From: a virus
Virus record (IMG/VR): IMGVR_UViG_3300044987_000088
Span: 1-22,793 of that record
Reading direction: 5' to 3' (one strand)
DNA: 22,793 nucleotides
In this document: one piece after another, positions 1,457 through 21,600 of the stretch
Numbering within the stretch: position 1 is the first letter of the stretch
How the letters are laid out: every line of letters starts with the position of its first letter
Notes under the pieces: generated by a model
Seen by the model: the letters and a program-made list of their open reading frames with translations, nothing else
The model's database searches: none
What the model was told of the DNA's origin: nothing
Program-made: the position numbers and the translations under genes

Positions 1457-2530
1457 ATGGCTTATTCTGGTTCTGTAGGCACGACCGTCATAACGGTCCA
1501 GACGCTGATTGACCACGGTGCGCGTCGCTGTGGGAAGTTGGCCGAGGAACTGACCTCAGAGCAGGTCCTGAGCGCCCGCGAGTCGCTTTTCTTCCTCCTG
1601 TCCAACCTGATCAACATCGGCATCCAGTATTGGGCCATCAGCAAGAAGGTCTATGGCCTTCAGGCGGACAGTTACATCTACAAGCTACCCCTAGGTGGCA
1701 ACGACGTCCTTCAGGCGCTGTACCGCAAAATGAACCGCCCTACACCCAACACGGTGGGTGGGTACGCCTCGAGCGCCGGTGGCATCGTTGAAAACGCATT
1801 TGACAACAACATTGAAACATCCTGCACCCAAACATCTGCCAACGGAAACATTTCAGTCGACTACGGCACAGACAACTCAGTCTACATCGGCTCAATCGGC
1901 ATATTGCCAGACGTTTCTGGCTCTTTCAACGTGGTATATGAGTATTCCAATGACGGAATTACTTGGAGCACGCTCGTAGCCCCGGGCGCAGAGACGTGGG
2001 TTGACAATGAGTGGATCTGGACAGATGTCAAGGTTGGCCAGACGGCGCAGTTTTATCGAATTCGCGAGACCGGCGGCAACACCCTGAGCCTGCGCGAGCT
2101 TTTTTTCGGCAACAATTCGACCGAAATCACGATGTCTCGCCTGAACCGCGACGACTACACCAACCTGCCCAACAAGAACTTCACGGCCAACCAGCCGTTC
2201 CAGTATTGGTTCAACCGGACCATCCCGCAGGCTGAGATCTATCTTTGGCCGGTGCCTTCGGATCCGTTCATTCAGATGACGGTGTGGTACTCGCGCCAGA
2301 TCATGGACGTAGGCGACCTGTACGGTGAGCTGGAGGTCCCGCAGCGCTGGTACGAGGCCGTCATCATGATGCTGGCTCACCGGATGAGCCTAGAGCTGCC
2401 CGGCGTAGACATGGCTCGCGTGCAGTACCTCGAGGGTCAGGCCGAAAAGTACCTTGGCATCGCCGAGGAAGAAGAACGCGACAAGTCGCCAATTTACTTC
2501 GCCCCAAATATTTCGTGCTACACAAGGTGA
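1457..2530 (+). CDS. Tail adaptor-like protein with inserted discoidin-like domain
   Basis: 357 residues, ATG 1457 separated by one base from the preceding stop. Residues 1-95 are helical with a pattern common in phage head-tail adaptor (tail tubular A / gp4-like) proteins: an N-terminal helix pair, then IGIQYWAISKKVYGLQ and beta strands. Residues 220-357 continue this fold, with NRTIPQAEIYLWPVP, then strands and a long C-terminal helix (QRWYEAVIMMLAHRMSLELP) typical of the family. Between them, about residues 96-219 resemble a galactose-binding/F5-8 type C (discoidin) beta sandwich, with a VENAFDNNIETSCTQ start and YEYSNDGITWSTL in the middle. That part would face outward and might bind carbohydrate. 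Role inferred: ring between portal and nozzle. A second adaptor-like gene lies at 9826. Confidence 0.7.
   Translation: MAYSGSVGTTVITVQTLIDHGARRCGKLAEELTSEQVLSARESLFFLLSNLINIGIQYWAISKKVYGLQADSYIYKLPLGGNDVLQALYRKMNRPTPNTVGGYASSAGGIVENAFDNNIETSCTQTSANGNISVDYGTDNSVYIGSIGILPDVSGSFNVVYEYSNDGITWSTLVAPGAETWVDNEWIWTDVKVGQTAQFYRIRETGGNTLSLRELFFGNNSTEITMSRLNRDDYTNLPNKNFTANQPFQYWFNRTIPQAEIYLWPVPSDPFIQMTVWYSRQIMDVGDLYGELEVPQRWYEAVIMMLAHRMSLELPGVDMARVQYLEGQAEKYLGIAEEEERDKSPIYFAPNISCYTR
1742..2113 (+). other. Discoidin-like domain insertion within adaptor gene
   Basis: This segment encodes residues 96-219 of the adaptor-like protein. It contains the features expected of an F5/8 type C domain: AFDNN with a following Cys/Thr strand, a YGT strand, and a YSNDG-x-TW hairpin. 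Codon use is locally more A-rich (for example 1790-1860) than in the flanking adaptor halves, which suggests the domain was acquired separately. Boundaries are estimated from where the helical adaptor pattern stops and resumes. Confidence 0.5.
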
Positions 2531-2533
2531 CCT

Positions 2534-2881
2534 ATGGCCATCTTTCTGGACACCCTCGGATACTCTGACATCGCAATTGCGATATGCGATCGCTGCAAGA
2601 TGAAGCGCCCGCATGCCGTGATGCGCAATGACCCCAACTTCCCGGGTCTCAGGGTATGCAATGAGGGCTGTGCAGACCAGCTTGACCCCTACCGTTTGCC
2701 AGCACGCAAAACCGAAAGGATAACGATTCGGTTTCCGCGTCCTGACGTAAGTGTGGCCGTTGACCCCAACAATTTGACCGCGTCAGGCGCATATGACGGG
2801 TATGTGCTCTCGCCCCAGCAAAACATCGAGACCCCTGAGAACAACGGGAACCTTGATGGGATAGAAGTCCAACCGAGCTGA
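2534..2881 (+). CDS. Zinc-ribbon-like small phage protein
   Basis: 115 residues. The start at ATG 2534 is preceded by AAGG at 2524-2527, inside the end of the upstream gene. Cys18 and Cys21 (CDRC), then Cys42 and Cys46 (CNEGC), make a CxxC...CxxxC pattern spaced like a treble-clef or zinc-ribbon site. The loop between contains DPNFPGLRV. A conserved segment PYRLPARKTERITIRFPRP follows. I know similar short proteins from phages of proteobacteria next to adaptor and tail genes, without a known function. The C-terminal 35 residues are acidic and low in structure. Zinc binding is inferred from the cysteine spacing only. Confidence 0.7.
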   Translation: MAIFLDTLGYSDIAIAICDRCKMKRPHAVMRNDPNFPGLRVCNEGCADQLDPYRLPARKTERITIRFPRPDVSVAVDPNNLTASGAYDGYVLSPQQNIETPENNGNLDGIEVQPS

Positions 2882-2882
2882 C

Positions 2883-3743
2883 ATGGCAAACGTAACCATC
2901 ACCCAACTGCCGCCAGCGGGCCCGATTACGGGGTCTGAGGCGGTTGCAATTGTCCAAGCTGGGCAGACAGTCAAAACCACCACCGGCGCGATCTCCGCCT
3001 CGCCGTCGCAGCCCTACACCTACCTGACCGTCACCCAAACGCCCCAGTTGGCCAACAGCCGGTACTTCGGGGCAACCAACGGTCTGACGCTGACCGACGG
3101 CGGTGCGCAGGGGGTATTCAATATAACGACCACAGGCGCTCTTTTGTCGTTGGTGAACTCCAGCACCGGGTTTCAGGTAAAAACGTCTTCTACGACCCTT
3201 GCAAGCCGTTCTATTGCTGTTTCCGGGGCTGGCCTGTCCATCGCCGACGGAAGCGGGGTTGCTGGTGACCCCACCGTCTCTTTGAGCGGGCAGGTGCTGA
3301 ATTTTGCCAACGCCAGTTTTGATGGCCTTGTAGTGCTTTCAACCGGCGGAGGTATCACCTCTGCGGTCATTGCGGGAACTGCAAACCAAATTTCCGTGGC
3401 AAATGGGAACGGGATAAGCGGCAACCCGACGATTTCTTTGGCTGACAACGCCGTTATGCCGGGGACCTCCGCTATGACGGTGGTTACAGGCACCATTGCC
3501 CAGCAACCCTCTGGATCTCAAGGACAGTTCAGATTCAATAGCGACACCCAGACGTTTGATGGCTATGCCGCTGGGATGTGGCGGCAATTTACAGCCAGCG
3601 GCGGCGTCCTGACATTCAGCGGCGGAACCACAGGGCTAACCCCATCTACTGCTACCGCTGGCGTCGTAACGCTTGGGGGCATTTTAAATACCGCCAATGG
3701 CGGCACTGGCACAATCTACGGAGTTTCCGGCGGGACTTTCTAA
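2883..3743 (+). CDS. Tail fibre-like virion protein
   Basis: 286 residues, ATG 2883 one base after the upstream stop. The N-terminus (MANVTITQLPPAGPITGSEA) is a common start of phage tail fibres and probably the virion-attachment part. The middle repeats a beta-strand motif: LSIADGSGVAGDPTVSLSG (about residues 118-136) and again NGNGISGNPTISLADN (about 173-188), which is typical of fibre shafts. A GQFRFNSDTQTFDGYAAGMW segment near residue 215 is a widespread fibre module. The C-terminus ends VSGGTF, a tail shared with the fibre-like protein ending at 12676. No membrane segment, catalytic motif or auto-chaperone is visible. The likely role is receptor contact or a fibre base. The next fibre gene starts 9 bases downstream. 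Confidence 0.75.
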   Translation: MANVTITQLPPAGPITGSEAVAIVQAGQTVKTTTGAISASPSQPYTYLTVTQTPQLANSRYFGATNGLTLTDGGAQGVFNITTTGALLSLVNSSTGFQVKTSSTTLASRSIAVSGAGLSIADGSGVAGDPTVSLSGQVLNFANASFDGLVVLSTGGGITSAVIAGTANQISVANGNGISGNPTISLADNAVMPGTSAMTVVTGTIAQQPSGSQGQFRFNSDTQTFDGYAAGMWRQFTASGGVLTFSGGTTGLTPSTATAGVVTLGGILNTANGGTGTIYGVSGGTF

Positions 3744-3752
3744 GGAAAAATT

Positions 3753-6700
3753 ATGGCTGCAACGAACTACACCCCGATCCAACTCTATCACTCAACGACT
3801 GCATCTGCCGTACCACTGGCGGCAAATCTTGTGCAAGGTGAATTGGCAATCAACATCACTGACGGCAAGCTGTATTACGAAGACAACGGCGGCGTTGTTC
3901 AGGTAATTGCCACCAAGGGTGCTGGCACGATCGGCGGCTCAACCACGCAGATCCAGTACAACAACGCAGGCGCGTTGGCCGGAAATGCCGCGATGACGTT
4001 CAACAGCGGGACCAGCACCACTACGCTAACCACGTTGAACCTCACCAATGCCCTTGGAGCGATCTATGGCGGCACGGCGCAGTCCGCCTATACCCAAGGT
4101 GACGTTCTGTACGCCTCGGCCACCAACACGCTTGCCAAGCTCGGCATTGGCGTGGTCAACTACATCCTGACATCCACCGGCTCGGTCCCTCAGTGGGTTG
4201 CCCCCACCAGCATTACCGTCAACACGGCGACCAACCTTGCCGGAGGCCTTGCGGGGTCGGTCCCCTACCAGTCCGCTTTGGACACGACCACCTTCTTGGC
4301 CATTGGAGCCGCGAACAGGGTCATGACGTCCACCGGGTCCGCCCCGCAGTGGGTGACGTCCCTGACGGGCCTTACGGGCGTTTCCAGCTCGTCTATCACG
4401 AACACCAGCCTGACCTCTGGCCGGGTGGTGATCAGCTCGACTGCTGGCCTTGAGGCTGACTCGGCAAACCTGACCTTCAACGGCACGACCCTGTCGACCA
4501 CCGGCCTGTCAAATACCGGCTTCAGCACCTTGGTCAAAACCCTGACCTTGGGCGACTCCAGCTTCAACGGCGCGGCGGTGTTTGCCCCCGCTACGCCTGC
4601 CAAGCTGTATTTGGGTACTGGTACCGTGACTGACGTCACTTCGGCCGCCAGCGCAACCAACACCACGGGTGCTATCGCCTCCTTGGCCATCACGCCAATC
4701 GCCGCGACCAACACAAGCGTCACCTATACCAACGCCTCAACCCTGTACATCGCAGGCGCTCCGAGTGCCGGTACGAACATCACGATCACCAACCCATACT
4801 CGCTGTACATCGCCGCTGGCGCTTCGTACTTCGGCGGGTTGGTTACTGCAACTGGTTTCTCTGGCCCGCTGAACGGCACTGTGGGGGCTACAACGCCTAC
4901 GACGGGGGCTTTTACGACGGTGAGTGCGACGGGTTTAGTATCTGGATCAAACGGTTGGTTTACTGGCCGCGATGCGCCATCGAGCGGCACGGGAGTTGAG
5001 GTATTTTCTGCTGGCGGCAATGGGCAATTGCTGGGATACAACCGGACGGGTGCGGCATATGTACCGCTGGTCTACGATGCGTCAAATCACACGTTCAACA
5101 TATCTGGCACTACTGTTGCCGCTGTATCCTCCACCGGCTTAGCAATCACCGGCACCCTAAGCGCAACTGGTGGCGTAACCCTCTCAGGCGGCACCGCCAA
5201 CGGCGTGGCTTACCTCAACGGCTCCAAGGTGCTGACAACGGGGTCTGCGCTGACGTTTGATGGGACGAATTTTAAAACTACAGGCTATGCAAAAGCTGGA
5301 GGTTTTACTGTTGCGGCTGGCACATTGACTGCCTTTGATGCGGCTTCAGGCGGCTTGTACGGCTATTACAGCAGCGGTGGTGTGCTTGCTAGTTATTCAG
5401 ACAACAGCGGCACGTTGTCACCTCTTAACTTTGACGGTTCATATTTGGCATGGCGACCCGCTGGCACCGAACAAATGCGCCTCACCAGCACAGGGCTGGG
5501 TATTGGGACGAGTTCGCCTGCTTATAAGTTGGATGTTGCTGGTTTTGTCAACACTTCTGCCGGATATACCGTAGGGGGCTTTACGGTTGGTGGGTACTTA
5601 GCTCTTGCAAGTAACTCAACTAATTTGTGGATAGGGGATATTCTCAATAATTTTGGTTCCGGTGTTGCGTTTTATTCTGGCGGTGCCGAACGCATGCGCC
5701 TAGACAGTTCCGGCAACCTAGGTATTGGGACGAGTTCGCCAGCGGCAAAGCTGGATGTATTCAAAGCTAGTTACGTAGACCAGTATTGGCGCACAGGCGT
5801 TGTCAATACCTACCTTGCATCGGATGACAGCCAAGCCAAAGCAATATTCGGAACAATTACAACGCACCCTTTAACTTTCTACACAAACGGTGCAGAGAAG
5901 ATGCGCCTAGACGCCTCCGGCAACCTAGGTATTGGTACTTCAAGCCCACTAACCAAACTTCATTTGCAAGATAACGCTGCTGTCTTCATTCAGATGACTG
6001 ATGTGGGCGATGGCGCAAGTCGAATCGGGCAAAACGGAACGGCACTTACGTTTGGCGTGGATAGCGGCAACGGAACAACCGAACGCATGCGCCTAGACGC
6101 CTCCGGCAACCTAGGCTTAGGGGTTACTCCTAGTGCTTGGACCGGTGGGTTTAAAGCGCTTCAAATGCCCGGCGGCTCTGTTGCAAGCTACGCATCTGGA
6201 ACTAATCTTCAGATAGAAATTGGTAGTGCTTATTACCAATCCAGCTTGGGCGCATACGCATATTTCAACACAGGTACTGCACCAACACTCTATCGTCAAC
6301 TTAACGGGCAGCACAATTGGAATATCGCACCCTCCGGCACAGCAGGCAACGCCATCACCTTCACCCAAGCAATGACGCTGACGGCTGATGGCGTACTGCT
6401 TATTGGGCAGACTGCAACCAAAACAGATGAATATTTGCGCGTGTCCAACTCAGGGCAGGCCAGTATGTTGCTGGATAACACAGGCAAAAACAACGGTGCG
6501 TTTTTGGGCGTGTTTAATGACGCGGCATTGTTTGGCGTAAACCGCAACCCGTCAAGTGGAATTTTTTACGACACCAGCAAATACGCAACGGACATTGTTG
6601 CAGTAGGCAGTAGCACCGACTCTTACATTGTTTTTGAAACGTCTTCGGCGGCTAACACCATACCCACCGAACGTATGCGCCTAGACGCTTCCGGCAATTT

Positions 6701-6920
6701 GTTGGTGGGGCTTACTTCCGCTACTGGAGTTGCAAAGCTACAAGTATCTGGCGCAATCAGAACGACTGGTTTTACTGTTGCAACACTACCTGCTGGCACT
6801 GTCGGCATGAGAACTTATGTGACAGACGCCTTGGCTCCATCTTTTAGCGCCACCGTTGTCGGCGGCGGTGCTGTCACTATCCCTGTTTTTTACAACGGCA
6901 CGAATTGGATCGTTGCTTAA
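3753..6920 (+). CDS. Long modular tail fibre protein
   Basis: 1055 residues with an AAGGA ribosome site just before ATG 3753. The N-terminal 60 residues (LVQGELAINITDGKLYYED) match the attachment module seen in many phage fibres. Residues about 110-220 hold two copies of a 52-residue unit ending GS-x-PQW. A linker near residues 370-395 contains GTVGATTPTTGAFTT, a module reused across phage fibres. From residue 570 onward, five copies of a unit of the form ERMRLDASGNLGIGTSSP alternate with variable segments. The C-terminus (ALAPSFSATVVGGGAVTIPV, then FYNGTNWIVA) is a common fibre end. I see no C-terminal S74 intramolecular chaperone, although the MRLD repeats often precede one. The role is receptor binding; which segment binds is not visible. 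Confidence 0.85.
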   Translation: MAATNYTPIQLYHSTTASAVPLAANLVQGELAINITDGKLYYEDNGGVVQVIATKGAGTIGGSTTQIQYNNAGALAGNAAMTFNSGTSTTTLTTLNLTNALGAIYGGTAQSAYTQGDVLYASATNTLAKLGIGVVNYILTSTGSVPQWVAPTSITVNTATNLAGGLAGSVPYQSALDTTTFLAIGAANRVMTSTGSAPQWVTSLTGLTGVSSSSITNTSLTSGRVVISSTAGLEADSANLTFNGTTLSTTGLSNTGFSTLVKTLTLGDSSFNGAAVFAPATPAKLYLGTGTVTDVTSAASATNTTGAIASLAITPIAATNTSVTYTNASTLYIAGAPSAGTNITITNPYSLYIAAGASYFGGLVTATGFSGPLNGTVGATTPTTGAFTTVSATGLVSGSNGWFTGRDAPSSGTGVEVFSAGGNGQLLGYNRTGAAYVPLVYDASNHTFNISGTTVAAVSSTGLAITGTLSATGGVTLSGGTANGVAYLNGSKVLTTGSALTFDGTNFKTTGYAKAGGFTVAAGTLTAFDAASGGLYGYYSSGGVLASYSDNSGTLSPLNFDGSYLAWRPAGTEQMRLTSTGLGIGTSSPAYKLDVAGFVNTSAGYTVGGFTVGGYLALASNSTNLWIGDILNNFGSGVAFYSGGAERMRLDSSGNLGIGTSSPAAKLDVFKASYVDQYWRTGVVNTYLASDDSQAKAIFGTITTHPLTFYTNGAEKMRLDASGNLGIGTSSPLTKLHLQDNAAVFIQMTDVGDGASRIGQNGTALTFGVDSGNGTTERMRLDASGNLGLGVTPSAWTGGFKALQMPGGSVASYASGTNLQIEIGSAYYQSSLGAYAYFNTGTAPTLYRQLNGQHNWNIAPSGTAGNAITFTQAMTLTADGVLLIGQTATKTDEYLRVSNSGQASMLLDNTGKNNGAFLGVFNDAALFGVNRNPSSGIFYDTSKYATDIVAVGSSTDSYIVFETSSAANTIPTERMRLDASGNLLVGLTSATGVAKLQVSGAIRTTGFTVATLPAGTVGMRTYVTDALAPSFSATVVGGGAVTIPVFYNGTNWIVA
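5469..6716 (+). repeat. Five ERMRLDASGN-type repeats in the tail fibre
   Basis: Units start at 5469, 5688, 5895, 6081 and 6669. The first is degenerate (EQMRLTSTGLGIGTSSP), the second is ERMRLDSSGNLGIGTSSP, the third is nearly the same, and the fourth and fifth change after SGNL. Copies three and four share a block of well over 20 identical bases covering the MRLDASGNL codons. Spacings are 219, 207, 186 and 588 bases, all multiples of three. Each copy is followed by a different 40-190-residue segment, so the repeats could act as joints or recombination sites. Confidence 0.85.
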
Positions 6921-8938: not shown

Positions 8939-9306
8939 GCCTCAGCGACGATCAGGCCGCTTTCCTACTGGATGCCTGCAAACTGATCCAGCACGCCACA
9001 GAGGCCGGTTTTAAGGTCACTGGGGGCGAACTAGCCCGCACCCCCGAGCAGCAGGCCATCTACGTCAAGACGGGCCGTTCCAAGACGCTGAACTCAATTC
9101 ACCTTAAGCGCTGCGCAATCGACCTAAATTTCTTCAAAGACGGTAAAATCATCTGGGACAAGGGGCAGCTCGCCCCGCTCGGCGCGTTTTGGGAGTCTTT
9201 GAATAAAGCTAACTCATGGGGTGGCAATGGAGTAACATTGGTGGACACACCACACTTCTCCAGAGGCCCAGATGGAAAACCAGAGTTCCGAAGAGTTGGA
9301 TCTTGA
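8935..9306 (+). CDS. Endolysin, M15-type peptidoglycan peptidase
   Basis: 123 residues, starting in an ATGA overlap with the holin-like gene. The zinc ligands of the M15 (VanY/Ala-Glu endopeptidase) family are visible: His56 and Asp63 in SIHLKRCAIDLNFF, and His107 in VDTPHF. GGELARTPEQQAIY near residue 30 is also characteristic. It would cleave the peptide stems of peptidoglycan. Length is at the short end for phage M15 endolysins. There is no signal peptide, so it depends on the upstream holin. The last 25-30 residues (GVTLVDTPHFSRGPDGKPEF and on) use more A/T-rich codons than the rest and overlap the start of an HNH gene by 35 bases. A second, differently coded VDCPHF end lies at 9779, so this end appears to have been replaced. 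Confidence 0.85.
   Translation: MSLSDDQAAFLLDACKLIQHATEAGFKVTGGELARTPEQQAIYVKTGRSKTLNSIHLKRCAIDLNFFKDGKIIWDKGQLAPLGAFWESLNKANSWGGNGVTLVDTPHFSRGPDGKPEFRRVGS
9262..9266 (+). promoter_or_regulatory. Ribosome site for the HNH gene inside the endolysin
   Basis: AGAGG lies five bases before ATG 9272, within the last codons of the endolysin. It supports the 9272 start over the in-frame ATG at 9320, which lies after the endolysin stop but has no visible ribosome site. Confidence 0.45.
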
Positions 9307-9814
9307 AAAATTTCAAACCATGTACGATCATCTTCTTGTCACGCGATGCGGTCGGGTTTTTACAAAAACTCGAATCAAGCATAGCTTCTCAAGGGGTCAA
9401 TCTCCATATTCATGCGAGGTCAAAGGCCGAGAGTTGAAGACTCGCAAAGACAAGGATGGGTACTTGAGATTCAACACAACGGTTGAAAACAAACACATCA
9501 CCCTGCTTGTCCATCGGCTGATGGCGTCTACTTTTTTGTCAAAGTGCCCAGACGGCCTTGTGGTTGATCACATTGACAGAAACAAGGTCAACAATCAAAT
9601 TGCAAACCTCCGATATGTCAGTCAGGCTGTAAATTGCAGAAATTCTGACCGCCACAAAATGACGGCAGAAAAAAAAGGAATGGCAGTTAAAATGAAAAAT
9701 ATCGGAGCATCAACGGCGGCCATTGCGCGGGCGCTAAACGTGGAATACGGCTCAGTAACGTATTATTTCAAGTCGCTGGTCGATTGCCCGCACTTTGAAC
9801 GCAACGTCGGCTAA
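9272..9814 (+). CDS. HNH homing endonuclease fused to endolysin remnant
   Basis: 180 residues. Residues 80-125 hold the HNH core: VHRLMA, then VVDHIDRNKVNNQIANLRYV with His100 and the paired Asn, then NCRNS. Residues 146-166 (ASTAAIARALNVEYGSVTYY) form a helix-turn-helix-like DNA-binding end, usual in phage HNH enzymes. The protein would nick or cut DNA at an intron-less or gene-less allele and spread its own gene. The final residues KSLVDCPHFERNVG do not belong to an HNH protein. They match an M15 endolysin end and switch to the G/C-rich codon style of the neighbouring phage genes. The gene is A/T-richer than its neighbours, as expected for a mobile endonuclease. Free-standing insertion is favoured over an intron because the coding region fills almost all the inserted DNA. 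Confidence 0.85.
   Translation: MENQSSEELDLEKFQTMYDHLLVTRCGRVFTKTRIKHSFSRGQSPYSCEVKGRELKTRKDKDGYLRFNTTVENKHITLLVHRLMASTFLSKCPDGLVVDHIDRNKVNNQIANLRYVSQAVNCRNSDRHKMTAEKKGMAVKMKNIGASTAAIARALNVEYGSVTYYFKSLVDCPHFERNVG
9767..9814 (+). pseudogene. Displaced original 3' end of the endolysin gene
   Basis: These bases encode FKSLVDCPHFERNVG and a stop, read in the HNH frame. The VDCPHF motif parallels the metal-binding VDTPHF of the endolysin at 9241-9258, 538 bases upstream and in another frame. I infer that this is the former endolysin terminus, separated from its gene when the endonuclease inserted. Confidence 0.6.
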
Positions 9815-9825
9815 CGGAGAAAAAC

Positions 9826-10461
9826 ATGACTGTCGCAGCCGTGATGACGTATTCCAGTTTGGTGAACGACATCCAGACCTATCTGGAGCGTACCGACCAG
9901 CAGACATTGGACAAGATTCCGCAGTTCATTATGCTGGCGGAGCAAGTCATTGCGGCCGAGATCAAGTTCCTTGGCAACCTGACCGTGGCCACGAGCACCA
10001 TGGTCCTCGGTGAAAACATCATTCCCAAGCCTGCCCGGTGGCGCAAGACGGTGTCAATGAACGTGACAGTGGCAGGCAAGCGCCAACCCTTGCTGTTACG
10101 CACCTACGAGTACATCCGAGAGTATTGGCCAAATCCAACCTCAACGGACGTCCCGCTGTACTTTTGCGACTACGACTACGAGCACTGGCTGGTAGGCCCA
10201 ACGCCTGCCTTGGCCTACTCCTACGAGGTGCTGTACTACCAGCGCGTACAGCCTTTGGACTCATCGAACCAATCCAGTTGGTTCACCCAGTACGCCCCGC
10301 AGGCGCTGCTGTACGGCACTTTGCTGCAGGCCATGCCGTTCCTCAAGAACGACGAGCGCATGCCTATGTGGCAGAGCAACTATGACCGAATTATTGAAGT
10401 CCTGAAGACGGAAAACGTCACCCGTGGCGCTGATCGTCAGGCGATTGCGAGGGATTCATGA
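9826..10461 (+). CDS. Phage adaptor protein (SU10/tail tubular A-like)
   Basis: 211 residues, ATG 9826 with ACGGAGAAA upstream. Residues 8-50 form the helical start (YSSLVNDIQTYLERTDQQTL, then IPQFIMLAEQVIAAEIKFLG) typical of podovirus adaptor proteins. Next come beta strands with LPxRTYEYIREYWPNP-like sequence and a DYEHWLVGPTPA strand. The C-terminal helices read YAPQALLYGTLLQAMPFLKN and end in a positively charged tail. It probably forms the ring under the portal to which the nozzle attaches. From memory this matches the adaptor family named after phage SU10. The gene is bracketed by two endonuclease genes: HNH upstream, and GIY-YIG starting in an ATGA overlap at 10458. Confidence 0.75.
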   Translation: MTVAAVMTYSSLVNDIQTYLERTDQQTLDKIPQFIMLAEQVIAAEIKFLGNLTVATSTMVLGENIIPKPARWRKTVSMNVTVAGKRQPLLLRTYEYIREYWPNPTSTDVPLYFCDYDYEHWLVGPTPALAYSYEVLYYQRVQPLDSSNQSSWFTQYAPQALLYGTLLQAMPFLKNDERMPMWQSNYDRIIEVLKTENVTRGADRQAIARDS

Positions 10462-11183
10462 CAACGTGGTCTCTCTACATTGTGACCAATGCTTGCAACG
10501 GTAAGCAGTACGTTGGCCTCACCAAAAATTTAGATCGCAGGCTCAAGCAACACATGTCTGCAAATGGAAGCGCCCCCGCGCTCCATGCGGCCATCAAAAA
10601 GCATGGGGCTGACAAGTTTGTTTTTTCTCACATCTGCGATGCGTTTGATTTTGAGGCTGCCTGCGACCTTGAGAGGATGCTCATTCAGCAGCACAATACC
10701 AAAGCGCCCAGCGGCTACAACCTAACAGACGGCGGCGAGGGTGTTGTTGGTTGGCCAATGACGGATCATGAAAAGAAAATCCGCAAGATTGCCTCTTCTG
10801 CTTATGTGGCCAGCTTGACGCAAGAGGAAAGATCAAAAAAATACGGAACCAAAGGTAAAAAACCAACTTTTGTCACGCTTGAAAAAAGAAGCATCAGCCT
10901 GAAGGGAAAGAATCTTGGCAAGACCGCTTCTGAAGAAGTTCGCGCCAAAATGTCGGCTGCCCATAAAGCCAGACCCAGAAACCCAATGAGCGAAGAAACT
11001 AAACAGAAAATTCGTCAATCGCTTCTTGGTCGCAAGATGCCAGAATCAGAAAAGTCTAAACATGCAAGTTTTTTGGGGCGCAAGCACTCCGAAGAAACTA
11101 AGGCAAAAATTAGGGCTTCCAACATAGCCACAAAAGCCATAAGCAAAGCGCAACGGCTTGCAGAAAACAAGGTGACCTTATGA
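10458..11183 (+). CDS. GIY-YIG homing endonuclease
   Basis: 241 residues. The N-terminal domain starts SLYIVTNACNGKQYVGLTKN followed by LDRRLKQH. LYI and YVG replace the family's GIY and YIG, with the downstream Arg of the active site in LDRRL. A conserved Glu in the ACDLERMLI helix completes the nuclease. From about residue 110 the protein is a chain of Lys-rich minor-groove-binding motifs of the NUMOD3 type: ASEEVRAKMSAAHKARP, then MSEETKQKIRQSLLGRK, then SFLGRKHSEETKAKIRASN. The start follows GAGGG at 10449-10453, in an ATGA shared with the adaptor stop. The stop forms another ATGA with the next gene. The A/T-rich composition sets it apart from both neighbours, which points to mobile origin. 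Confidence 0.9.
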   Translation: MTTWSLYIVTNACNGKQYVGLTKNLDRRLKQHMSANGSAPALHAAIKKHGADKFVFSHICDAFDFEAACDLERMLIQQHNTKAPSGYNLTDGGEGVVGWPMTDHEKKIRKIASSAYVASLTQEERSKKYGTKGKKPTFVTLEKRSISLKGKNLGKTASEEVRAKMSAAHKARPRNPMSEETKQKIRQSLLGRKMPESEKSKHASFLGRKHSEETKAKIRASNIATKAISKAQRLAENKVTL

Positions 11184-12676
11184 GCTTTAATAGTCCCTTC
11201 ACGGGAACCGTCATTCAGCCGACCGACGTTTCATACCGCTCAATCACGCTGTCCGAAGACGGCACGCTGTCGTGGCCAATCAACGGCAGCGACACAGACA
11301 ACGCAGCCGCCCGGGTCATGGACGTCACGTCGCTCTCAAGCGGATTGGTGCTTGCTGGCGTTACCGTCGCAGGCACAAACGGCCAGTGCTCTTGCACGGC
11401 CACCCCAAGCCTGTTTGTTGGCCAAGCCGTTGTTGTCACCGGGGTTTTGACTGGCACGTCAACAGGCATTGTCAGCGGCAACACCTACTACATCATTCTC
11501 ACCAATGGCACGACCACCTTCACGCTGTCGGCTACTTCGGGCGGCACGGCGGTGGCCACTACGGCTGGCACAACCACTGGTCTGACGTTCACGCTGGACT
11601 CGTTCACTTTGGACATGCCGCCTGCCAATCAGGCGTCTGTGGGTATTGACGCGCTGTTCCGCAACGTCGGGTCCTACACCTTCACCGTCAGGGACTACGC
11701 TGGTGGCACGATCGTCACGATCGCCCCCGGTGAGGCCAAGTACATTTACCTGACCAGCAACGCCACCACGGCGGGAACATGGGGCCTGATTGCCTTTGGC
11801 GTCGGCACCTCCAACGTCGACGCCGCAACTCTTGCAGGGTTTGGCCTCAAGGCTATTTCTAACACCCTGAACGCCGCCAATGAGGTCAACACCTTTGCGT
11901 CCAACTACACCGCGCTGACCACCGACCGCGCCTCAACTTACGTCTGGACTGGCGGCTCCGGCACCCTAGCGCTGACGTCAGCCGTCACACTGGGCAACGA
12001 CTGGTACATGATGGTCCGAAACGGTGGGTCTGGCACTTTGACCATTGCCCCTGCCGGTGGAATACAGATCAACGCAGCGTCAACGATTTCCCTGCAGCCT
12101 GCTGACTCCTGCGTGATCTGCTGCTCCGGATCTGCCTTTTTTACCGTCGGCTTGGGTCGAAGCACGCAGTTCAATTTCACCCAGCTCACCAAGGCCGTGG
12201 TGACCGGCAGCTACACCCTGAGCGCCTCAGAGGCGGCCAACACGATTCAGAAGTACACCGGAACCCTGACAGGCAACGTCACCGTCACATTGCCTCAGAC
12301 GGTGCAAATTTATTACATCACCAACCAGACAAACGGTGGCGGCCCCGGATACCAGATCACCTTCACCACAGGCGCGGGCGGTGCTACGGCGACCGTCCCC
12401 GCTGGCCAGCAGGTGATCTTGCTGTGCGACTCGGTCAACTTGCTGAACGCCTCAACGATTGCCGCCGGTGCGGTAAATGTTTCTCTGGTGGATGGAACTG
12501 TGGGCGCTCCATCTCTGAACTTTGCGACTGAGACGTCAACGGGTATTTACCGCCCCGGATCGGGTGAATTCGGTATTGCAATCTTGGGCGTCAAGCTGTT
12601 TGGTCTGACCGCTACAGGGCTAAACATACCGGGCACCGGCAACTTTACTGGGGGTGTTCAGGGCGGGACCTTCTGA
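11180..12676 (+). CDS. Modular virion/tail fibre-like protein
   Basis: 498 residues, in an ATGA overlap with the endonuclease gene; AAGG at 11169-11172 lies in the endonuclease's own end. The N-terminus MSFNSPFTGTVIQPTDVSYR is a conserved opening of podovirus virion proteins. Residues about 51-143 look like a separate beta domain (FVGQAVVVTGVLTGT, then GNTYYIILTNGTTTFTLSAT), a type found in many tail and fibre proteins. The rest is beta-rich. Near the C-terminus, GAPSLNFATETSTGIYRPGS is a motif usually found in fibre shafts, and the protein ends GGVQGGTF, like the fibre ending at 3743. It lies between adaptor and nozzle genes, so it may be a fibre attached to the tail tube. Confidence 0.7.
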   Translation: MSFNSPFTGTVIQPTDVSYRSITLSEDGTLSWPINGSDTDNAAARVMDVTSLSSGLVLAGVTVAGTNGQCSCTATPSLFVGQAVVVTGVLTGTSTGIVSGNTYYIILTNGTTTFTLSATSGGTAVATTAGTTTGLTFTLDSFTLDMPPANQASVGIDALFRNVGSYTFTVRDYAGGTIVTIAPGEAKYIYLTSNATTAGTWGLIAFGVGTSNVDAATLAGFGLKAISNTLNAANEVNTFASNYTALTTDRASTYVWTGGSGTLALTSAVTLGNDWYMMVRNGGSGTLTIAPAGGIQINAASTISLQPADSCVICCSGSAFFTVGLGRSTQFNFTQLTKAVVTGSYTLSASEAANTIQKYTGTLTGNVTVTLPQTVQIYYITNQTNGGGPGYQITFTTGAGGATATVPAGQQVILLCDSVNLLNASTIAAGAVNVSLVDGTVGAPSLNFATETSTGIYRPGSGEFGIAILGVKLFGLTATGLNIPGTGNFTGGVQGGTF

Positions 12677-14889
12677 TGTCAGCCAAGGTCTTCTCCCTAG
12701 ACACGCAGCCGGGCATTCAGCGCGACGGCACGGTATTTGACAGGGTGTTCTACACCGACGGCGAGTGGGTCCGCTTCCAGCGCGGCCGCCCGCGCAAGAT
12801 TGGTGGCTTCCGGGTCATCTCTGGCCAGCTCACTGGGCCCTCACGCGGGATCTGGGTCAACCCCCAGAACGCCTTCACCTCAATTTTCAGCGGCTACAAC
12901 GACGGCTTGCAGGTCCTGACCATTGACAACAACGGCGTAGGCGCTGGCGTGGGCAATTTTACCCTGTCCAACTTCACCCAGACCGACCTAAACCTCTGGC
13001 AGTTTGACGGCTTTTACGACGTGGCTGGCACCGGCTTGCAGTCTCTCGTGGCGCACCCCGGCCAAAACCTTGCCTCCATCAGCAATGACAACAACACGCC
13101 CGTGCTGATTGGCGACATCACCGCGTTGACGATGCAGCAGGTTGGGGTGTTTACCGACTCTGGCTCCACAACAAATTTGAGCCCTACGGTGACGTTAGCC
13201 GCCGCAAACCCGCTGATCGGCGCTGGCCAGACTGTGACCGGATCAGGCATACCTGCCAACACTACGGTGGTGTCAATATCTACCACCACGCTGACATTGT
13301 CAAATAACGCCACGGCCACGGCCACGGTCACGCTGACCTTCAACAACAATATCGCGGTGTCCGGCGGCGTTGTGTCGCTGCACCCGTACCTGTTTGTCTA
13401 CGGCAACAACGGCTTGATCCAGAACTGCTCGGCAGGCAATACCAACGATTGGGTCTCAGCCGACGCCAATGCGACCAACGTGGCCTCCGGCAAGATTGTG
13501 CAGGGCCTACCCGTCAGGGGCGGCTCAAACGCGCCTTCTGGCCTGTTCTGGAGCCTTGACAGCCTGATCCGCGTGTCTTTCATCGGCGGCACCGGTTCGC
13601 CTCCTCAATACTGGCGCTACGACATCATCAGCAGCCAGTCTTCCATTCTTTCGTCGCAGTCGGCCATTGAGTACGACGGCGTCTATTACTGGTGCGGCGT
13701 TGACCGATTCTTGCTTTACAACGGTGTTGTGAAGGAGATCCCCAACACCATGAACCAGAACTACTTCTTTGACAACCTGAACTATGACCAGCGTCAGAAG
13801 GTGTGGGCAACGAAGGTCCCCCGGTTTGGTGAGATCTGGTGGTTCTATCCTCGTGGGGATGCTACCGAATGCACCGACGCCATCATCTACAACGTGCGCG
13901 AAAACACTTGGTACGACGCCGGTGAGGCCCGTGGTGCCCAGCGCTCCGCCGGGTACTTCTCGCAGGTGTTTGCCTACCCCGTGGCGGCCGATTGGCATGG
14001 CAGCACGGCCGAAACCGTATTTACAGGCACTTTTAACGAGGTGTCCGGCAGCGTTTTCCTGTTCAGCGATACCTACAGCACGCAGGCCGCGCTCGGGCAG
14101 GTTATCACCGGCTCCAACATCCCAACGAACACGACCGTGGTGGCCATTACGACCAGCAACATTGAGACACTTGGTGCCATCACCCCGGGCTCTGGTTACG
14201 TCAACGGCTCATACGTCGGTGTAGCCCTCACAGGAGGCTCAGGATCGGGCGCTACGGCCACGATTGGCGTTGCTGGAGGGGTAGTAGCCTCGGTGACCAT
14301 TGTGGCCCGTGGAGCGGGTTATTTGGTGGGCGACGTTCTGAGCGCCACGGCGGCCAGCTTGGGCGGTTCCGGAGCTGGTTTTTCCATTCCGGTGACGGAC
14401 ATTTATGCCCAAGCCATCCAGATGTCAGCGGCGGCCACTGGAACCGGATCGGTGTCATTGACCTTTTCAATCCCGGCTGACCTCATTGCCATGTACCAAC
14501 ACGAAATTGGAACGGACGAGATTGATGGCCAAAACGTGCGGGCCATTCTGAGCTCATTTGAGACCAACGATCTGAGCTGGATGGGCGGCGGACCGTCGCA
14601 GCCAACGCCAGAAGGACAAAACCGCTGGATCCGCTTGGAGCGCGTCGAGCCTGATTTTGTGCAGTCCGGGGAAATGTCCATGGTTGTGACTGGGCGACCA
14701 TTTGCGCAGGGCGAGGACAAGGATTCGGACCCTTACATTTTTGGGCCTAACACCGGAAAAATTGACCTGCGTGAACAACGTCGCGAGCTGCGATTGAAAT
14801 TCACCTCCGACGTGGCCGGTGGAAATTATCAGCTCGGCAAATTGCTTCTCAGCGCCGAGATCGGCGATGTGAGGCCGTATGGCTCTTAA
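12676..14889 (+). CDS. Tail nozzle / gp10-like stabilisation protein
   Basis: 737 residues, sharing one base with the previous stop (TGATG). The start is the conserved FDRVFYTDGEWVRFQRGRPR region of podovirus nozzle and packaged-DNA stabilisation proteins. Blade-like repeats of about 40 residues follow (residues 50-150, 230-440, 600-737), with motifs such as YWCGVDRFLLYNGVVKEIP and a conserved C-terminus GKIDLREQRRELRLKFTSD. It would plug or extend the tail tube below the adaptor. P22 gp10 is 472 residues. The extra length here comes from two inserted domains at about residues 160-223 and 447-600. Role is inferred from pattern and position after the adaptor genes. Confidence 0.75.
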   Translation: MSAKVFSLDTQPGIQRDGTVFDRVFYTDGEWVRFQRGRPRKIGGFRVISGQLTGPSRGIWVNPQNAFTSIFSGYNDGLQVLTIDNNGVGAGVGNFTLSNFTQTDLNLWQFDGFYDVAGTGLQSLVAHPGQNLASISNDNNTPVLIGDITALTMQQVGVFTDSGSTTNLSPTVTLAAANPLIGAGQTVTGSGIPANTTVVSISTTTLTLSNNATATATVTLTFNNNIAVSGGVVSLHPYLFVYGNNGLIQNCSAGNTNDWVSADANATNVASGKIVQGLPVRGGSNAPSGLFWSLDSLIRVSFIGGTGSPPQYWRYDIISSQSSILSSQSAIEYDGVYYWCGVDRFLLYNGVVKEIPNTMNQNYFFDNLNYDQRQKVWATKVPRFGEIWWFYPRGDATECTDAIIYNVRENTWYDAGEARGAQRSAGYFSQVFAYPVAADWHGSTAETVFTGTFNEVSGSVFLFSDTYSTQAALGQVITGSNIPTNTTVVAITTSNIETLGAITPGSGYVNGSYVGVALTGGSGSGATATIGVAGGVVASVTIVARGAGYLVGDVLSATAASLGGSGAGFSIPVTDIYAQAIQMSAAATGTGSVSLTFSIPADLIAMYQHEIGTDEIDGQNVRAILSSFETNDLSWMGGGPSQPTPEGQNRWIRLERVEPDFVQSGEMSMVVTGRPFAQGEDKDSDPYIFGPNTGKIDLREQRRELRLKFTSDVAGGNYQLGKLLLSAEIGDVRPYGS
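14014..14475 (+). other. Nested accessory domains inserted in the nozzle gene
   Basis: Residues 447-600 begin like a TGSNIPTNTTVVAIT beta module and finish with GTGSVSLTFSI. That module also occurs, uninterrupted, at residues 160-223 (TGSGIPANTTVVSIS...VTLTF, bases 13153-13344). In the second copy it is split by about 80 residues (497-578, bases 14164-14409) with a GSGY-x-NGSYVGVALTGGSG pattern, followed by VASVTIVARGAGYLVGD. This is a domain placed within a domain placed within the nozzle. Confidence 0.6.
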
Positions 14890-15623: not shown

Positions 15624-18600
15624 ATGAGCATTGTAAAAGACCTTGTTGAGGGTGTTGGTGGTGCAATTGGCACGGCTTTGAATGCCGTCGTAGGGGTTGT
15701 CTCTGGTGTTGGCAACGCAATTGCCGGACAGGTAAACGGACTTGCAAGAACCTTGACCGGCATCATGGAAGACCCACTCCCGACGTTGCTGCAGGTTGGT
15801 GGATCACTGGTTGGCATACCGCCTTATGTGACTGCCGCCGTCATCACTGCGGCACGAGGCGGCAACTTGGAGGATGTTGCAAAGTCAGCGGCAATTTCTT
15901 ACGGCGCGGCTCAGATCATGGGCAACACAAACATCGGCAAAGAGATTGGCAAAGTAACCCAAACGGCCGGTCAAGACTTTACCGACTCAATGGTGAAAAA
16001 CTTCAATCTGCCAGTTGACACCGCAGTTGCGGTTTCAAAGGCTGCAACAGCAAGTTTGAATTCATCAATCATAGGCGGTGTCAATGCGGCAATTAGCGGC
16101 AAGAACGTCATGGACGGCATCACCTCTGGTTTTACCTCCGGCTTGATCTACTCCTCAACCAGCAGCTACTTTGACGAGTTGAACAAAGACCCCAACTGGG
16201 GCTTGTCGCCAAAGACTCTGGACCTCATGAAGGGTGCTGGTAGCAGCGCCTTGAATTCGATTGTGTCCGGCAAAGACCCGTCTCAGGCCGTTGGCAATTA
16301 CATCGCCTCCGCCTTTATCAGCATGGGTGAAACGACGCTCAAGAAGGCCGCCACCGATGCATTTACCGAACTGACAACCGACACTAACGCGGCCAAGGCT
16401 GCGCAAGACAAGTACATCACCGCAAAAGCTGAGTTGGATGACAAGGCTCGAAGAGGCGAAGCCCTCCGCAAAGAAATAAACGACGAGTCGGCTGCCTACC
16501 AAAAAACAATCACTGAAAAATATAACCCGCTCAAGGCTGAGTACGACAAATTGGCTATTGATAGCGCGGCTGCTGTCAACACCTATACCGAACACAAAAA
16601 AATCTACGAAGACAACATCGGGTCGTACAACAACTACCAAAATATCATAGGCCAATACGGTGGGCATTACGAAAGTAGATCGGCTGGGGATGCGGATTAC
16701 GAGGCATTCATATCACACGCTCCAAGTAGACAGTCATTCTTGGATGCCGCAAACGCTGCCGCTGCTACCGCAAACGCTGCGGGGAAAACTGCTGAGAATG
16801 CCTCAATAGCCGCTCAAAAGTTGATGAGCGACAACCAGTCAATGATTGACAGCTTGACAAGCGGCAAGGCGTTGATTGACAAAAAAGTTGCTGACTTTCA
16901 GGCGATCAAAAAAGACATTGAGGACCCATCTGTTGCCGGATCCACTGCCGCCACGCTGAAGGCCGCCTCGGACGCCTACCAGACCAAATACGACGCTTGG
17001 TCCAAGACTAAGTCGGCCGCCGATCGTTCTGCTGAAAACTACACCAAGGCATTGGCTGAGGTGGCCACACGCGATGCAACCATCGACGCCCTGAACACCG
17101 GGGCCATCAAAGTTACGAGCAAGGACGCTGACAACAACTGGGTGCTGGACAACGGCATGACCCTGACCGCTCAAGGCAAGTTTGTTCAGAACGGTCAGCA
17201 GGTGTTTGCTGGCGCTGTAGGCGTCCCCCAGAAGGTTATGGACTTCAAGGCAAATGACGGTTCCAACGTCGACTTCAACTCCGAAGCAGGTCGGGTGCTG
17301 TCAGAGACTGACGTCGTCAATATCTGCAAGCGCGACTACGGCTTCGAGCCAACTACCGATGAGATTGACCGGCTTGCCGGGGCCACCTACACGGGCACAG
17401 GCAACCAAGACATCACCGCGCTGGCTGACCAGAAAGCAACAGCGGCTTACCGCTCCGTCACCGGTACAGACCCGACGGCAGATGAGCTCGCCGCCATCAA
17501 GAGGACCAACAACGTCGTTGGCAGCGCCATCAGCTTGGCCAAGACCGGTGATGCCGACCCGTGGGGGAACTTAGAGGGTGCGATGCTCAAAGGGGCATCC
17601 GGCCAAGACGTCAAGTTAACTGACGCCCAACTGACTGAAATGGTGCGCAAAGGGCTTGTTTTTGAAGGCGGCGACTTCAACACCAAGCAGGACGCGGCCA
17701 ACGCCGCCCGGTTGGCAGGTTACACGCAGTTTGAGTACGACAACAGCGTTTACACCATGCAGCCGGGAGGGCCTACAGAGAAGGATGTGTTCAAAGCCGC
17801 CATTGACATGCAGCCAACTAGAGGCGAGGCGTTTAACACTGCCCGCAGCCTGCTTGGAGCTGACAAGACCTTTGATTACAAAGGTGCGGCGTACACTACG
17901 GAGACGCGGGAAGAGCGAAATGCTCGACAGTACAACTCTGACGCGGCAATTCAAGCTCGGGTAGATTTGATCCCTGCTGTTGGCGGGTCAATCAACACCC
18001 GGACAGGCACCCCGGCAAATGTCTCAAATACTTTCATTGACCAAAAAACCAATCAAGTTGTAGAGGACACCCGAGTCTGGGACGTTTTTGGGAACGTGGT
18101 GAGCGGAAGCCTAAGTGTTGCTGACCAACCAAGGGCATTGCAGGTTGCAGGATCGCTTGTTCTTGACGCCGGAACGCAAATGATTGACGCTTTTACAGGG
18201 GCTGGTAAATTTCTTGGTGCGGTAGACAAAAACGGTGAATTTGCCAAAAACGTCAACCAGCTTGTCAACTTCAACAAAGCTCAAACTCCTCCAGAGGTAA
18301 GCGCTGAATCAGCAATTTTTTGGAGCAATGTAAAAAACGCTCAAGGCATAGCTGACACCGCAAAAGTTGTTCTTAGTTCGGTGGTTGACCAGCCGTTAAT
18401 GACTGGCTTCAACATTGCCTCAGAAATTATTCAGACGATGGGAACCTTGGGCGCTGGCGCTGGCGTTAAATATGCGTCCACGTTGTTGAAAGCGGCTCCA
18501 ACTCTTGCCGCAAAGTTAGGCATCGGCGTAGACGTGGTTTTAAACATCGGAGAATCTGCCGGAGCAGCTTACAACGAGTCGTACAAAAAAGCGTTGAACA

Positions 18601-21600
18601 GCGTCGGCGCACAAGTACGAGATGGGTCTATGACCACAGCCGATGCAGAGGCTTATGCTGAGGACACGGCAGGCAAAACTTTCCTTGCCGCAGCAGGCGT
18701 GACCGGGGCGGTCATGTTGCTTCCGGGTGGCAACGCACTTGCCAAGCAGGTGCTGGGATCAGGTGCAGAAACTGCCGCAATGAAGACAGCATTTAAAGAG
18801 GCAATAAAAACCGATGCGGCAAAGGTTGGCTATAAATTGGCCGCAGGAACATCCGTAAAGGAAACTATTGCAGAAGGCGGCGAGGCTGGTCTTATAGAGG
18901 CTGTAAGCCAGAAAATTTTAAATCCAGACGCAGATTACAACTGGAAGGATATTACCGTAACGACTATGCTGGATAGCATTTACGGAGGCGGGCATTCTGC
19001 TGTAATTGCCGCTGCTGACGTTGCTGTTTCCAACTTTAAAGACAGGCTCATTTCCTCTGGCGTTGATCAAACTGAAGTTGAAAACCTGACAAATAAAGTA
19101 ACCGATTTAGTCAAGTCGGGCAACGTGTCAGATGCGTCCATAGCAGCCTTAAAAACGGAAACTGCAAATTTATTTCAAAGTGTTGGTCTTCGCATTGATC
19201 CAACTTTGGACTTGATGAACGACCAATTTTTGGCTGGGGTTGTGTCGCAAGAAGTGGCTGGAGAGTTGAGCTTGTCTGGACTGAGTCCGGAGCAAATAGC
19301 GAAAAATTTGTCCGGTGCCGTTGCTCACGTTGAGTCCGGTCAAAAAATTGACCCAACTTACGTCGACCCGTTTTTGACGGACGAAGCAGAGGCCCGACAG
19401 ATCGCGCAAAGCCTTGGCTATACCAACCCCTCACCCGAGGTCCTGAAGAGCCTCACAGGCCCGATAAGCGAGGCTGACGCGCAAATAAAATTAGACAAGT
19501 TCTTGGGGGGCATGAACGCGTTCGAGTCAGGCAAGCCGATCGACGCTGCCGCTGCGCAAGGGATGGTAAAGGATCTCGGTCTGACCAACCTGTCAGACGC
19601 CGAAGCAATCAGCCTTGCGACAAAAATTGTTCAGAGCGTCCCAGCCGACAAATTAAGCGAGCCCAAAATGACTCCGGAACAAGTACGCACCATCATTGAT
19701 GAATTTATCGTTGCCAACCCAACCCTTACAGAGGTTCAGGTTGGACGGATTGTCAACGATGCAATTGCAAAAATTCCTGCCGGGACCTCAGCGGCTGACA
19801 TCTCCAGTTTGGTGACGACGGCAATTTCCAACATTCCCAGTGGCCTCAGCATCGACGACGTCTCAAGGGTCGTAACTGATGCCACCAAAAATCTGACGAC
19901 AAAGCTAGACACCGAAAAAGCCATTTCTGATGCGATCGGAAAAATAAACTTTCCAGCAGGGATTACCACTGCTGACGTCACCTCGGCGATCAAGACTTAC
20001 ATGACTGAAAACCCGGGCTTGTCGCTTTCTGACGTTGCCGGAAAGATTACAGAGTCGACTAAGGGTCTGGCAACTGACACCAGCGTCCAAAACGCAATCA
20101 GCACGGCATTGAAAGACGTGGCCACAACGGCAGACGTCAATAAGGCAATTTCCAACATCAAGTTCCCGGCAGGCATCACTGCGGCGGACGTGGCAGCACA
20201 GGTCAAGGCTGAGTTGATTGCCAACCCGGGCCTGACCGCTGAAGACGTTGCGGGATCAATTTCCGCCTACATGACGGCCAACCCGGGCCTGTCTGCTGCT
20301 GACGTTAAAGCGGTCATTGATGATTCAACCAAAAATTTTGCAACCAAGAAAAATATTGAAGACGCGATTGCGGAGATCAAGTTCCCGGCGGGCATTACGT
20401 CTGCCGACGTGAGTCTGGCCATCACCAACTACATGAAGGAGAACCCCGGCCTAACACTGCAGCAGGTGTCTGATGCAATTACTACCGGGACCAGCGGCCT
20501 TGCCACTGACGCAGGAGTAAAGACGTCTATCAGCGATGCCTTGAAGGGTGTTGCTACAAAAACGGACGTTGCAGATGCAATTAAGGGAATTGTGTTCCCT
20601 GCCGGGATTTCAAAGGATGACGTCACAAATTCAATTGCGGCTTACATGAAAGAGAACCCCGGCCTCTCTATCCCAGACGTAACGGCAGCAATTACAACTT
20701 ACATGACTGCCAACCCGGCCCTTACAGCCACCGACGTCACAAGCATCGTAAGCAACGCAACCAAAGACTTGGTGACCAACACCGCATTGAACACGGCGCT
20801 TGCTGGCGTTACTACCGACGTCAAAACAAAATTTGACGCCTTGACTCAAGCTCAGAAAGACGCCGTTGCCGACCAGCTCCAGCAGGGCAAGGATCTCACT
20901 AAAGCCATCACTGACACCGCTTCCGGGCTGCAGGCCAACATTGATGCGCTGTCTGGCACCGTGAAAACCCAATACGACTCTCTCACGCAAGCTCAAAAGG
21001 ATGCCGTTGCGGATCAGGTCCAACAAGGGAAAGACCTCACAAAGGCAATCACTGATTCGGCGTCTGGCCTGCAAACCCAAATTACAGGGCTGACGACTGA
21101 CGTTAAGACCAAATACGATGCCTTGACTCAGGCCCAAAAGGACGCCGTTGCATCGCAAGTTCAGCAAGGAAAAGACCTGACTACGGTCATCAATAATACG
21201 GCCTCTGGACTGCAAACGCAGATTACTGGTCTGTCAGTCGACTCTCAGACCAAGTACGACGCCTTGACGCAGGGTCAGAAGGACATTGTTGCCAATCAGG
21301 CCAAGCAAGGCGTTGACCTCACCACGGCAATCAATGATGCGTCCAAGCTGGCGACGCAACAGGTGGCTGATGTCAAGAAAGACGTCGGCGCACTGACGAC
21401 AGACGTTCAGGCCAAGTACGACCTTCTGAATCAGGGTCAAAAAGACATTGTCGCCACTCAAGTCAAGCTAGGTGTTGACGTCAACAAGGCAATCGAAGAC
21501 GCGGCCAAAACAACCTCTGGCGAAATTGCTGCTGTAAAAACAGAACTGAAAAAAGACATTGGCGAGGGTCAGACGCAGTTCAACACGCGAGTTGACGACC

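Follow-up and report, generated by a model that had tools for sequence, protein, structure and literature searches.

We found that adaptor-1, a head-tail adaptor homolog encoded in the window (the whole stretch of DNA that was analyzed, a virus record of 22,793 bases), is predicted to carry a complete discoidin-like domain within its fold, and that in relatives of the window this insert is, as judged from sequence comparisons, an exchangeable cassette. On balance, we lean toward reading the insert as an accessory, outward-facing surface-binding domain at the neck that diversifies apart from the ring core, with the fibers as the main receptor-binding parts. That a discoidin-like domain interrupts a protein of adaptor fold had been the original prediction, and it was borne out; the exchange of the insert is an addition to that observation. 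The window is probably a fragment, since several records with the adaptor-1 gene run 52 to 62 kb. Throughout, residue numbers are those of window adaptor-1, L-numbers are labels of individual relative loci, and the clades are called W (the window's own), M (Candidatus Megaera, Rickettsiales-phage type), and C (Caulobacter phages).

Table 1. Positions in the window of adaptor-1, its parts, and genes of the neck and tail region
Feature	Position	Strand	Evidence
Adaptor-1, head-tail adaptor homolog with inserted domain, 357 aa	1457..2530	+	ORF, SU10_adaptor match, fold of insert-free homolog
N-terminal part of adaptor core (residues 1-91): two helices, followed by strands as far as 81-91	1457..1729	+	AlphaFold secondary structure; alignment with insert-free homologs
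Insert (residues 92-220), predicted beta-sandwich resembling F5/8 type C / CBM32	1730..2116	+	Model pLDDT 88-94; VIA Z 16.6; change points
C-terminal adaptor core, residues 221-357: remaining beta domain, two helices, tail	2117..2527	+	Model; SU10_adaptor match 210-341
Small gene, 115 aa, four Cys in first half, directly downstream of adaptor-1	2534..2881	+	ORF
Structural (286 aa) and tail-fiber-like (1055 aa) genes	2883..6920	+	PHROG structural 3.5e-10, tail fiber 1.4e-16
Adaptor-2, SU10_adaptor paralog, 211 aa, no insert	9826..10461	+	Pfam E 1e-23, 85.3 bits
Virion structural protein of 737 aa, nozzle-like, encoded near adaptor-2	12676..14889	+	PHROG 3287 E 8.5e-23

Predicted fold of adaptor-1 and its insert

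The adaptor-1 ORF has zero internal stops (Table 1). The window protein matches Pfam SU10_adaptor over residues 210 to 341 (E 5.4e-5, 24.2 bits; cut-off 27) and F5_F8_type_C at E 0.016 as a full protein or E 0.0013 with the insert alone (19.3 bits; cut-off 28.2), and both matches are weak taken alone because they lie below the curated cut-offs. The homolog L400, a single ORF, exceeds both cut-offs (29.9 bits for F5_F8_type_C and 27.7 bits for SU10_adaptor), so that the profile search yields matches to both families, sub-cut-off in the window and above it in this relative. The SU10_adaptor cut-off is also exceeded by L404 (33.2 bits) and by CRP-901 gp54, an insert-free protein of 226 aa (52.4 bits), and 24 of the 50 W-clade inserts match F5_F8_type_C at E ≤ 0.01. 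Searching the PDB with window adaptor-1 by phmmer gave zero matches up to E 10. With the window insert alone as the query, the top match was YeCBM32 (E 0.082), while the adaptor-1 profile (A1) found glycosidase chains (E 4e-4, positions 108 to 177 of the profile) and an insert-only profile found 3f2z (E 0.01) and 4a42 (E 0.16), with arginases after those.

An AlphaFold2 model of adaptor-1, built from 86 aligned sequences, had a mean pLDDT of 83.5, with residues 91 to 220 at 88 to 94, and in it residues from about 92 to 220 form a separate domain. This domain matches CBM32/F5-8 type C structures (Foldseek, VIA), best 7d2a (Z 16.6, 2.3 Å over 122 residues), followed by 4a42 (Z 16.1) and 2j1a (Z 15.6); among the 50 VIA matches listed, Z ranged from 16.6 to 14.2 and the matched part of the model was mostly near residues 92 to 220. 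The insert is predicted from this model to have a galactose-binding-like beta-sandwich fold. It had been placed at positions 1742 to 2113, which are residues 96 to 219 in frame, and by the model the limits in Table 1 fit better. For the core, a model of a 226-aa insert-free homolog, weaker at a pLDDT of 72, matched the head-tail adaptors of GP4 (portal-tail complex 8jov, the top VIA match, Z 13.6), cyanophage A4 (13.3), VP1 (12.7), P22 (11.6), SU10 (10.1), and T7 (9.8), and the order of helices and strands in the window adaptor-1 model is that of this homolog. These models predict a podovirus head-tail adaptor fold for the adaptor-1 core, a helix bundle with a beta domain, in which the insert occupies the hairpin turn between the strands of residues 81 to 91 and 223 to 229 (junction residues 91/221).

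Structure prediction did not place the insert in the adaptor core, and the separate domain in the model, together with the plain fold of the insert-free homolog, rules out that the insert is part of that core. A chance Pfam match is likewise ruled out by the structural matches and by L400. In BFVD, a protein of 350 aa from an uncultured phage, labeled "uncharacterized protein," matches the model over its full length (TM 0.84/0.85, 25% identity), so the architecture of an adaptor with an insert is already present in databases.

SU10 gp11 and adaptors of the T7 and P-SCSP1u type have the same helix bundle and beta domain as adaptor-1. According to PMC9509320 and PMC10575957, the beta domain of the T7, SU10, and P-SCSP1u adaptors is the fiber dock and binds fibers, and the hairpin-bearing beta domain of adaptor-1 corresponds to this dock. 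The SU10 gene order also resembles that of the window (capsid, adaptor, fibers, lysis, tail or short-fiber position, nozzle). In contrast to adaptor-1 with its complete F5/8 type C-like domain, SU10 gp11, when aligned, has no domain at the hairpin, and it was found by sequence from an adaptor-2, not from adaptor-1. The GP4 adaptor chain, at 213 aa, has no room for an insert; entry 8jov contains two adaptor-like chains, comparable to adaptor-1 and adaptor-2. Over 115 to 122 residues, the insert shares its fold with domains of the CBM32/F5-8 type C group from bacterial glycosidases and lyases (7d2a, 4a42, and 2j1a), but it is without visible galactose-binding residues and its carrier is an adaptor homolog. 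A comparable arrangement exists in the "evolved Dit" of siphophages, in which carbohydrate-binding insertions are found in the Dit ring. In siphophage R4C, the Dit has a sugar-binding-type insertion in a ring protein as an accessory adhesion device, as may be the case for adaptor-1, although Dit is a distal tail protein and the adaptor-1 insert is in a neck adaptor. The R4C adaptor has an additional beta domain, as does adaptor-1, but one that is N-terminal, Ig-like, and in contact with the capsid, unlike the adaptor-1 insert.

Distribution of the insert among relatives

Homologs of adaptor-1 were found in MW202545 (67% identity), Caulobacter phages (39%), and CRP-901/902 (about 29%). The first scan gave at least 597 relatives, of which 80 were kept, and in the redundant set from four scans and phage records the insert is present in 241 of 326 homologous ORFs. 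Insert-bearing relatives include the Caulobacter phages RW, RLK, KcrB, and GB2A in clade C and, in clade M, two Candidatus Megaera (Rickettsiales) plasmids with a phage structural module, CP113869 and AP017967. In all of these records the protein is a homologous adaptor with the insert but is not annotated as an adaptor; one Megaera plasmid protein was annotated "Discoidin domain-containing protein" by the depositor, and the Caulobacter form is without the segment of residues 109 to 129. The two plasmids (L326, CP113869.1; L327, AP017967.1) are circular and look like phage-plasmids, since the adaptor is accompanied on them by a portal-like gene and a phage terminase; between the structural genes, L326 has a BrnT-annotated gene and L327 a CopG-annotated gene. 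Insert-free homologs, proposed at the outset as a check, do exist: besides Roseobacter CRP-901 and CRP-902, they include two Manatee Spring phages and Alcaligenes phage QDWS535.

Two scans with the insert only (80 of at least 569 relatives kept in one, 78 of 78 in the other) were added, and an insert ORF is now known in 163 loci, 153 of them new from these scans and 10 from earlier. Both core halves are present in 151 of the 163, and the other 12, which are cut by a contig end, contain the half that remains. Other virion proteins as carriers were rejected, as the loci kept from these two scans carry the insert only in adaptors. Matches to PF00754 occurred in 10 of the 26 records searched, nine of them in reading frames about as long as adaptor-1 and a weak one in a 1446-aa ORF. 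This last F5_F8_type_C match (record G014, that of L156, positions 37876 to 38004) is in a separate ORF near the adaptor, a possible second carrier. The 275 distinct insert-bearing proteins form eight core clusters by single linkage at 55% identity, with sizes of 115, 58, 52, 43, 3, 2, 1, and 1. A search of bacterial genome contigs found no relatives of window adaptor-1 on bacterial chromosomes, and the Megaera adaptor as the query against such contigs gave one Rickettsiales MAG contig. In a core tree, Megaera groups with CRP-901 weakly (83/80) and on long branches, and insert presence needs two changes, one change sufficing in 0 of 200 bootstrap trees; the claim of exchange does not rest on this tree. 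In searches of the open PMC literature, we recognized no paper that describes a phage adaptor with a discoidin-like domain, which is no proof of its absence from print; a passage of PMC7824862 mentions discoidin domains in jumbo phages, not in connection with adaptors.

Adaptor-2 and neighboring genes

In each of 26 records searched, one SU10_adaptor match, that of adaptor-2, lies above the cut-off (at least 79 bits). The adaptor-2 of MW202545 finds SU10 gp11 (7z47) at E 0.0024, and by sequence adaptor-2 is a closer relative of SU10 gp11 than adaptor-1 is. Two SU10_adaptor-type proteins per genome suggest a two-ring neck outside crassviruses; in that group, as PMC10172136 reports, having several ring proteins that are paralogs is a defining trait. 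The small gene after adaptor-1 is present in all 35 loci that extend 4.7 kb or more downstream, and its product has no PHROG or Pfam match. The label "nozzle-like" comes from comparing its gene position with that of SU10 gp17. Adaptor-2 is flanked by HNH_3 and GIY-YIG/NUMOD3 endonuclease genes (9272 to 9814 and 10458 to 11183), probably homing endonucleases, and at 15624 to 22433 the window encodes a protein of 2269 aa in which similar segments recur many times and which has no Pfam match, perhaps an ejection or internal virion protein.

Exchange of the insert in relatives of the window

Within clades, mean identity is lower for the insert than for the core (0.656 versus 0.781 in W, 0.615 versus 0.721 in M, and 0.647 versus 0.753 in C), whereas between W and M the order is reversed (insert 0.308, core 0.221); this reversal alone could reflect fold constraint. 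Among pairs with a remaining core at least 95% identical, the insert is less than 75% identical in 417 of 964 pairs in M, 58 of 321 in C, and 14 of 407 in W, and less than 50% identical in 236 of the M pairs and in none of the W or C pairs; these and the discordance counts below are not probabilities, since the pairs are non-independent and the sampling is redundant, with near-copies. The 74 M loci make up one core cluster (single linkage, 85%) and contain two alleles of the N-terminal half of the insert (44 and 30 loci), two of the C-terminal half (47 and 27), and three chimeras. Similar inserts are also found in dissimilar cores: L400, L402, and L404 to L406 are 27 to 45% identical to the Megaera protein in the core halves and 66 to 76% in the insert, and some adaptors with cores 34 to 39% identical have inserts 76 to 79% identical.

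The same patterns are seen in DNA. In windows compared between L334 and L378, identity is 81 to 100% outside the insert and 38 to 62% across it; between L402 and L370, it is 65 to 81% in the insert and 27 to 57% in the surroundings, with one downstream window at 62%. Over the span compared, L407 equals L378 at gene nucleotides 241 to 287 and then L334 at nucleotides 288 to 330. Identity thus drops and then recovers near the insert edges, and in fits with two change points the median edges were close to the structural limits of 92 and 220, at residues 96 and 221 in M (40 of the 236 pairs), 94 and 211 in C (18 pairs), and 93 and 216 in W (14 pairs), with wide ranges (91 to 222 on the left and 221 to 333 on the right in M; 191 to 214 on the right in C; 140 to 216 on the right in W). 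When the control segments 1-90, 222-290, and 222-345 were treated as the insert had been, there were 0 discordant pairs in W, M, and C, and segment 291-357 gave discordant pairs in M (22 of 1,099) and none in W or C. For the core flanks of the 275 proteins, a C-terminal core below 0.4 with an N-terminal core above 0.6 occurred in 0 of 20,149 pairs (insert equivalent, 267 of 20,751), and a C-terminal core above 0.95 with an N-terminal core below 0.75 in 0 of 819 (insert equivalent, 214 of 743).

The W-clade discordance is modest, so rate alone could explain it; L249 and L261, for example, are 62 to 83% identical in insert windows and 78 to 92% in the core. Exchange is best shown in M and is only suggested in W, as no close pair in W or C has an insert below 50%. 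Exchange as a cassette is the pattern expected of a surface-recognition module, and it strengthens the earlier view of the insert as a possible recognition domain.

Insert alleles and the downstream fiber

Host recognition by tailed phages is usually sought in fibers and tail tips. Across the 35 W loci with enough downstream sequence, length-scaled mean identity to the window decreased from the core halves (89.8 and 86.2) through the insert (75.0) to successive parts of the fiber (49.6, 11.8, and 5.7), so the variation is mainly in the fiber, with the insert in between. An unlikely but serious alternative to a surface-binding domain is that the insert is an enlarged fiber-docking element, which grips a tail fiber or other appendage and varies with its partner. 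The insert lies within the beta domain that serves T7/SU10-type adaptors as fiber dock, where it may be compared with the fiber dock loops of SU10 gp11, and fiber-like genes come after adaptor-1 both in the window and in SU10. The insert allele is also associated with the downstream fiber cluster, with mutual information matched by 0 of 1,000 shuffles for the fiber N terminus, 2 of 1,000 for the C terminus, and 13 of 1,000 for the whole gene; for the small intervening gene, shuffles were as high in 100 of 1,000. This association could come from shared descent, linkage, or real co-variation. Against a docking role, one fiber N-terminal cluster of 44 M loci occurs with both insert alleles (30 and 14), and both occur in 4 of the 6 multi-member clusters of the whole fiber gene, which is complete in 57 of the 74 loci. 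L334 and L382 differ in the insert, yet over most of the following 4 kb their DNA is 90 to 100% identical, with one stretch at 72 to 94%, and Caulobacter phage GB2A has no annotated fiber gene directly after adaptor-1 and one after adaptor-2. Within the fiber-like gene downstream, the L334-L382 comparison also shows a gap of some 450 bases, from +2050 to +2500 relative to the adaptor start.

Conserved residues of the insert

Galactose-binding CBM32s use Trp/His after the D-N-T loop and Arg/Asn in the next loop, and in an alignment of the insert to 3f2z these residues are absent at the aligned positions. CBM32 ligand sites vary, and carbohydrate binding elsewhere on the insert may occur. The observation behind the original prediction is confirmed and its interpretation partly supported, the proposal of carbohydrate binding being weakened by the absence of the galactose-binding residues. 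The structural calcium site of F5/8 type C domains consists of Asp, Asn/Asp, Thr, and a C-terminal Glu. A putative equivalent is present in nearly all of 217 long-form inserts (D116 in 213, N or D118 in 210, T121 in 208, and E214 in 208), and it seems partly lost in the 58 short-form inserts of the Caulobacter type, which are without residues 109 to 129: D116 is missing in all, and position 214 is E in 10 and Q in 38, with N118 retained in 49 and T121 in 50. Two loops of the insert are strongly conserved (Q125 in 205, G130 in 217, and G207 in 211 of 217) and could mean a constant, perhaps internal, partner. In a comparison of conservation with insert-free proteins, at least 2 of 51 "insert-free" rows (L396 and L403) were contig-end fragments of insert-bearing proteins, and its closest pairs were therefore left unused.

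These residues bear on a reading that we regard as improbable, in which the insert reinforces the structure through contacts with the capsid, adaptor-2, or neighboring subunits, like the Ig-like domain of the R4C adaptor. The attachment domain of the R4C adaptor, which binds the capsid, is a precedent, the two conserved loops and D116/N118/T121/E214 are kept across lineages, and the two adaptor paralogs per genome offer a possible partner within the neck. A constant internal partner, however, does not predict replacement of the allele with an unchanged core (236 of 964 pairs), nor inserts common to cores 34 to 39% identical.

Bacterial immunity senses phage structural proteins, capsids among them, and the insert could be a surface target escaping recognition by intracellular host sensing or decoys, its diversity then reflecting evasion and not binding. 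Allele replacement with a constant core would fit this view, but we think it very unlikely, as the lectin-type fold is retained and loss of the insert would be a simpler escape, given that insert-free adaptors exist and that ring function in general needs no insert. Least probable of all is that there was no exchange and that the insert evolved fast early and under fold constraint later, so that identities merely look discordant, which could explain W versus M and the W-clade and C-clade pairs but leaves unexplained the sharp changes in DNA identity near both insert edges, the chimeric inserts, the L407 junction, and the 76 to 79% identical inserts in 34 to 39% identical cores, and is contradicted for clade M.

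Possible role of the insert in host recognition

In the reading that we favor, that of an accessory surface-binding domain, adaptor-1 would be a podovirus-type neck ring protein with the discoidin-like beta-sandwich inserted at a hairpin turn of the fiber-dock region. Because the insertion is in the fiber-dock beta domain, the ring most likely displays the insert copies outward at the neck, where they may bind host envelope polysaccharide or another external ligand and so contribute to adsorption. Homologous recombination in and around the insert would swap versions within the same adaptor, and recombination would also move similar inserts between adaptors with cores only about 35% alike. More tentatively, and with somewhat less than even confidence, we suggest that the neck ring is a second organ of host recognition, in which lectin-type domains, perhaps twelve of them, would form a crown and cassette replacement within an unchanging adaptor would alter their specificity, for the most part separately from the fibers, in phages of up to eight insert-carrying core lineages.

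The computed exchange in relatives points to domain replacement inside a neck ring protein, with a core able to accommodate an entire extra domain at a single hairpin. If a neck adaptor does have an exchangeable lectin-type domain, then host-range prediction and annotation would be missing a module. The loci with one core and two alleles, in which phages are alike around the gene and differ in the insert, would be a natural experiment.
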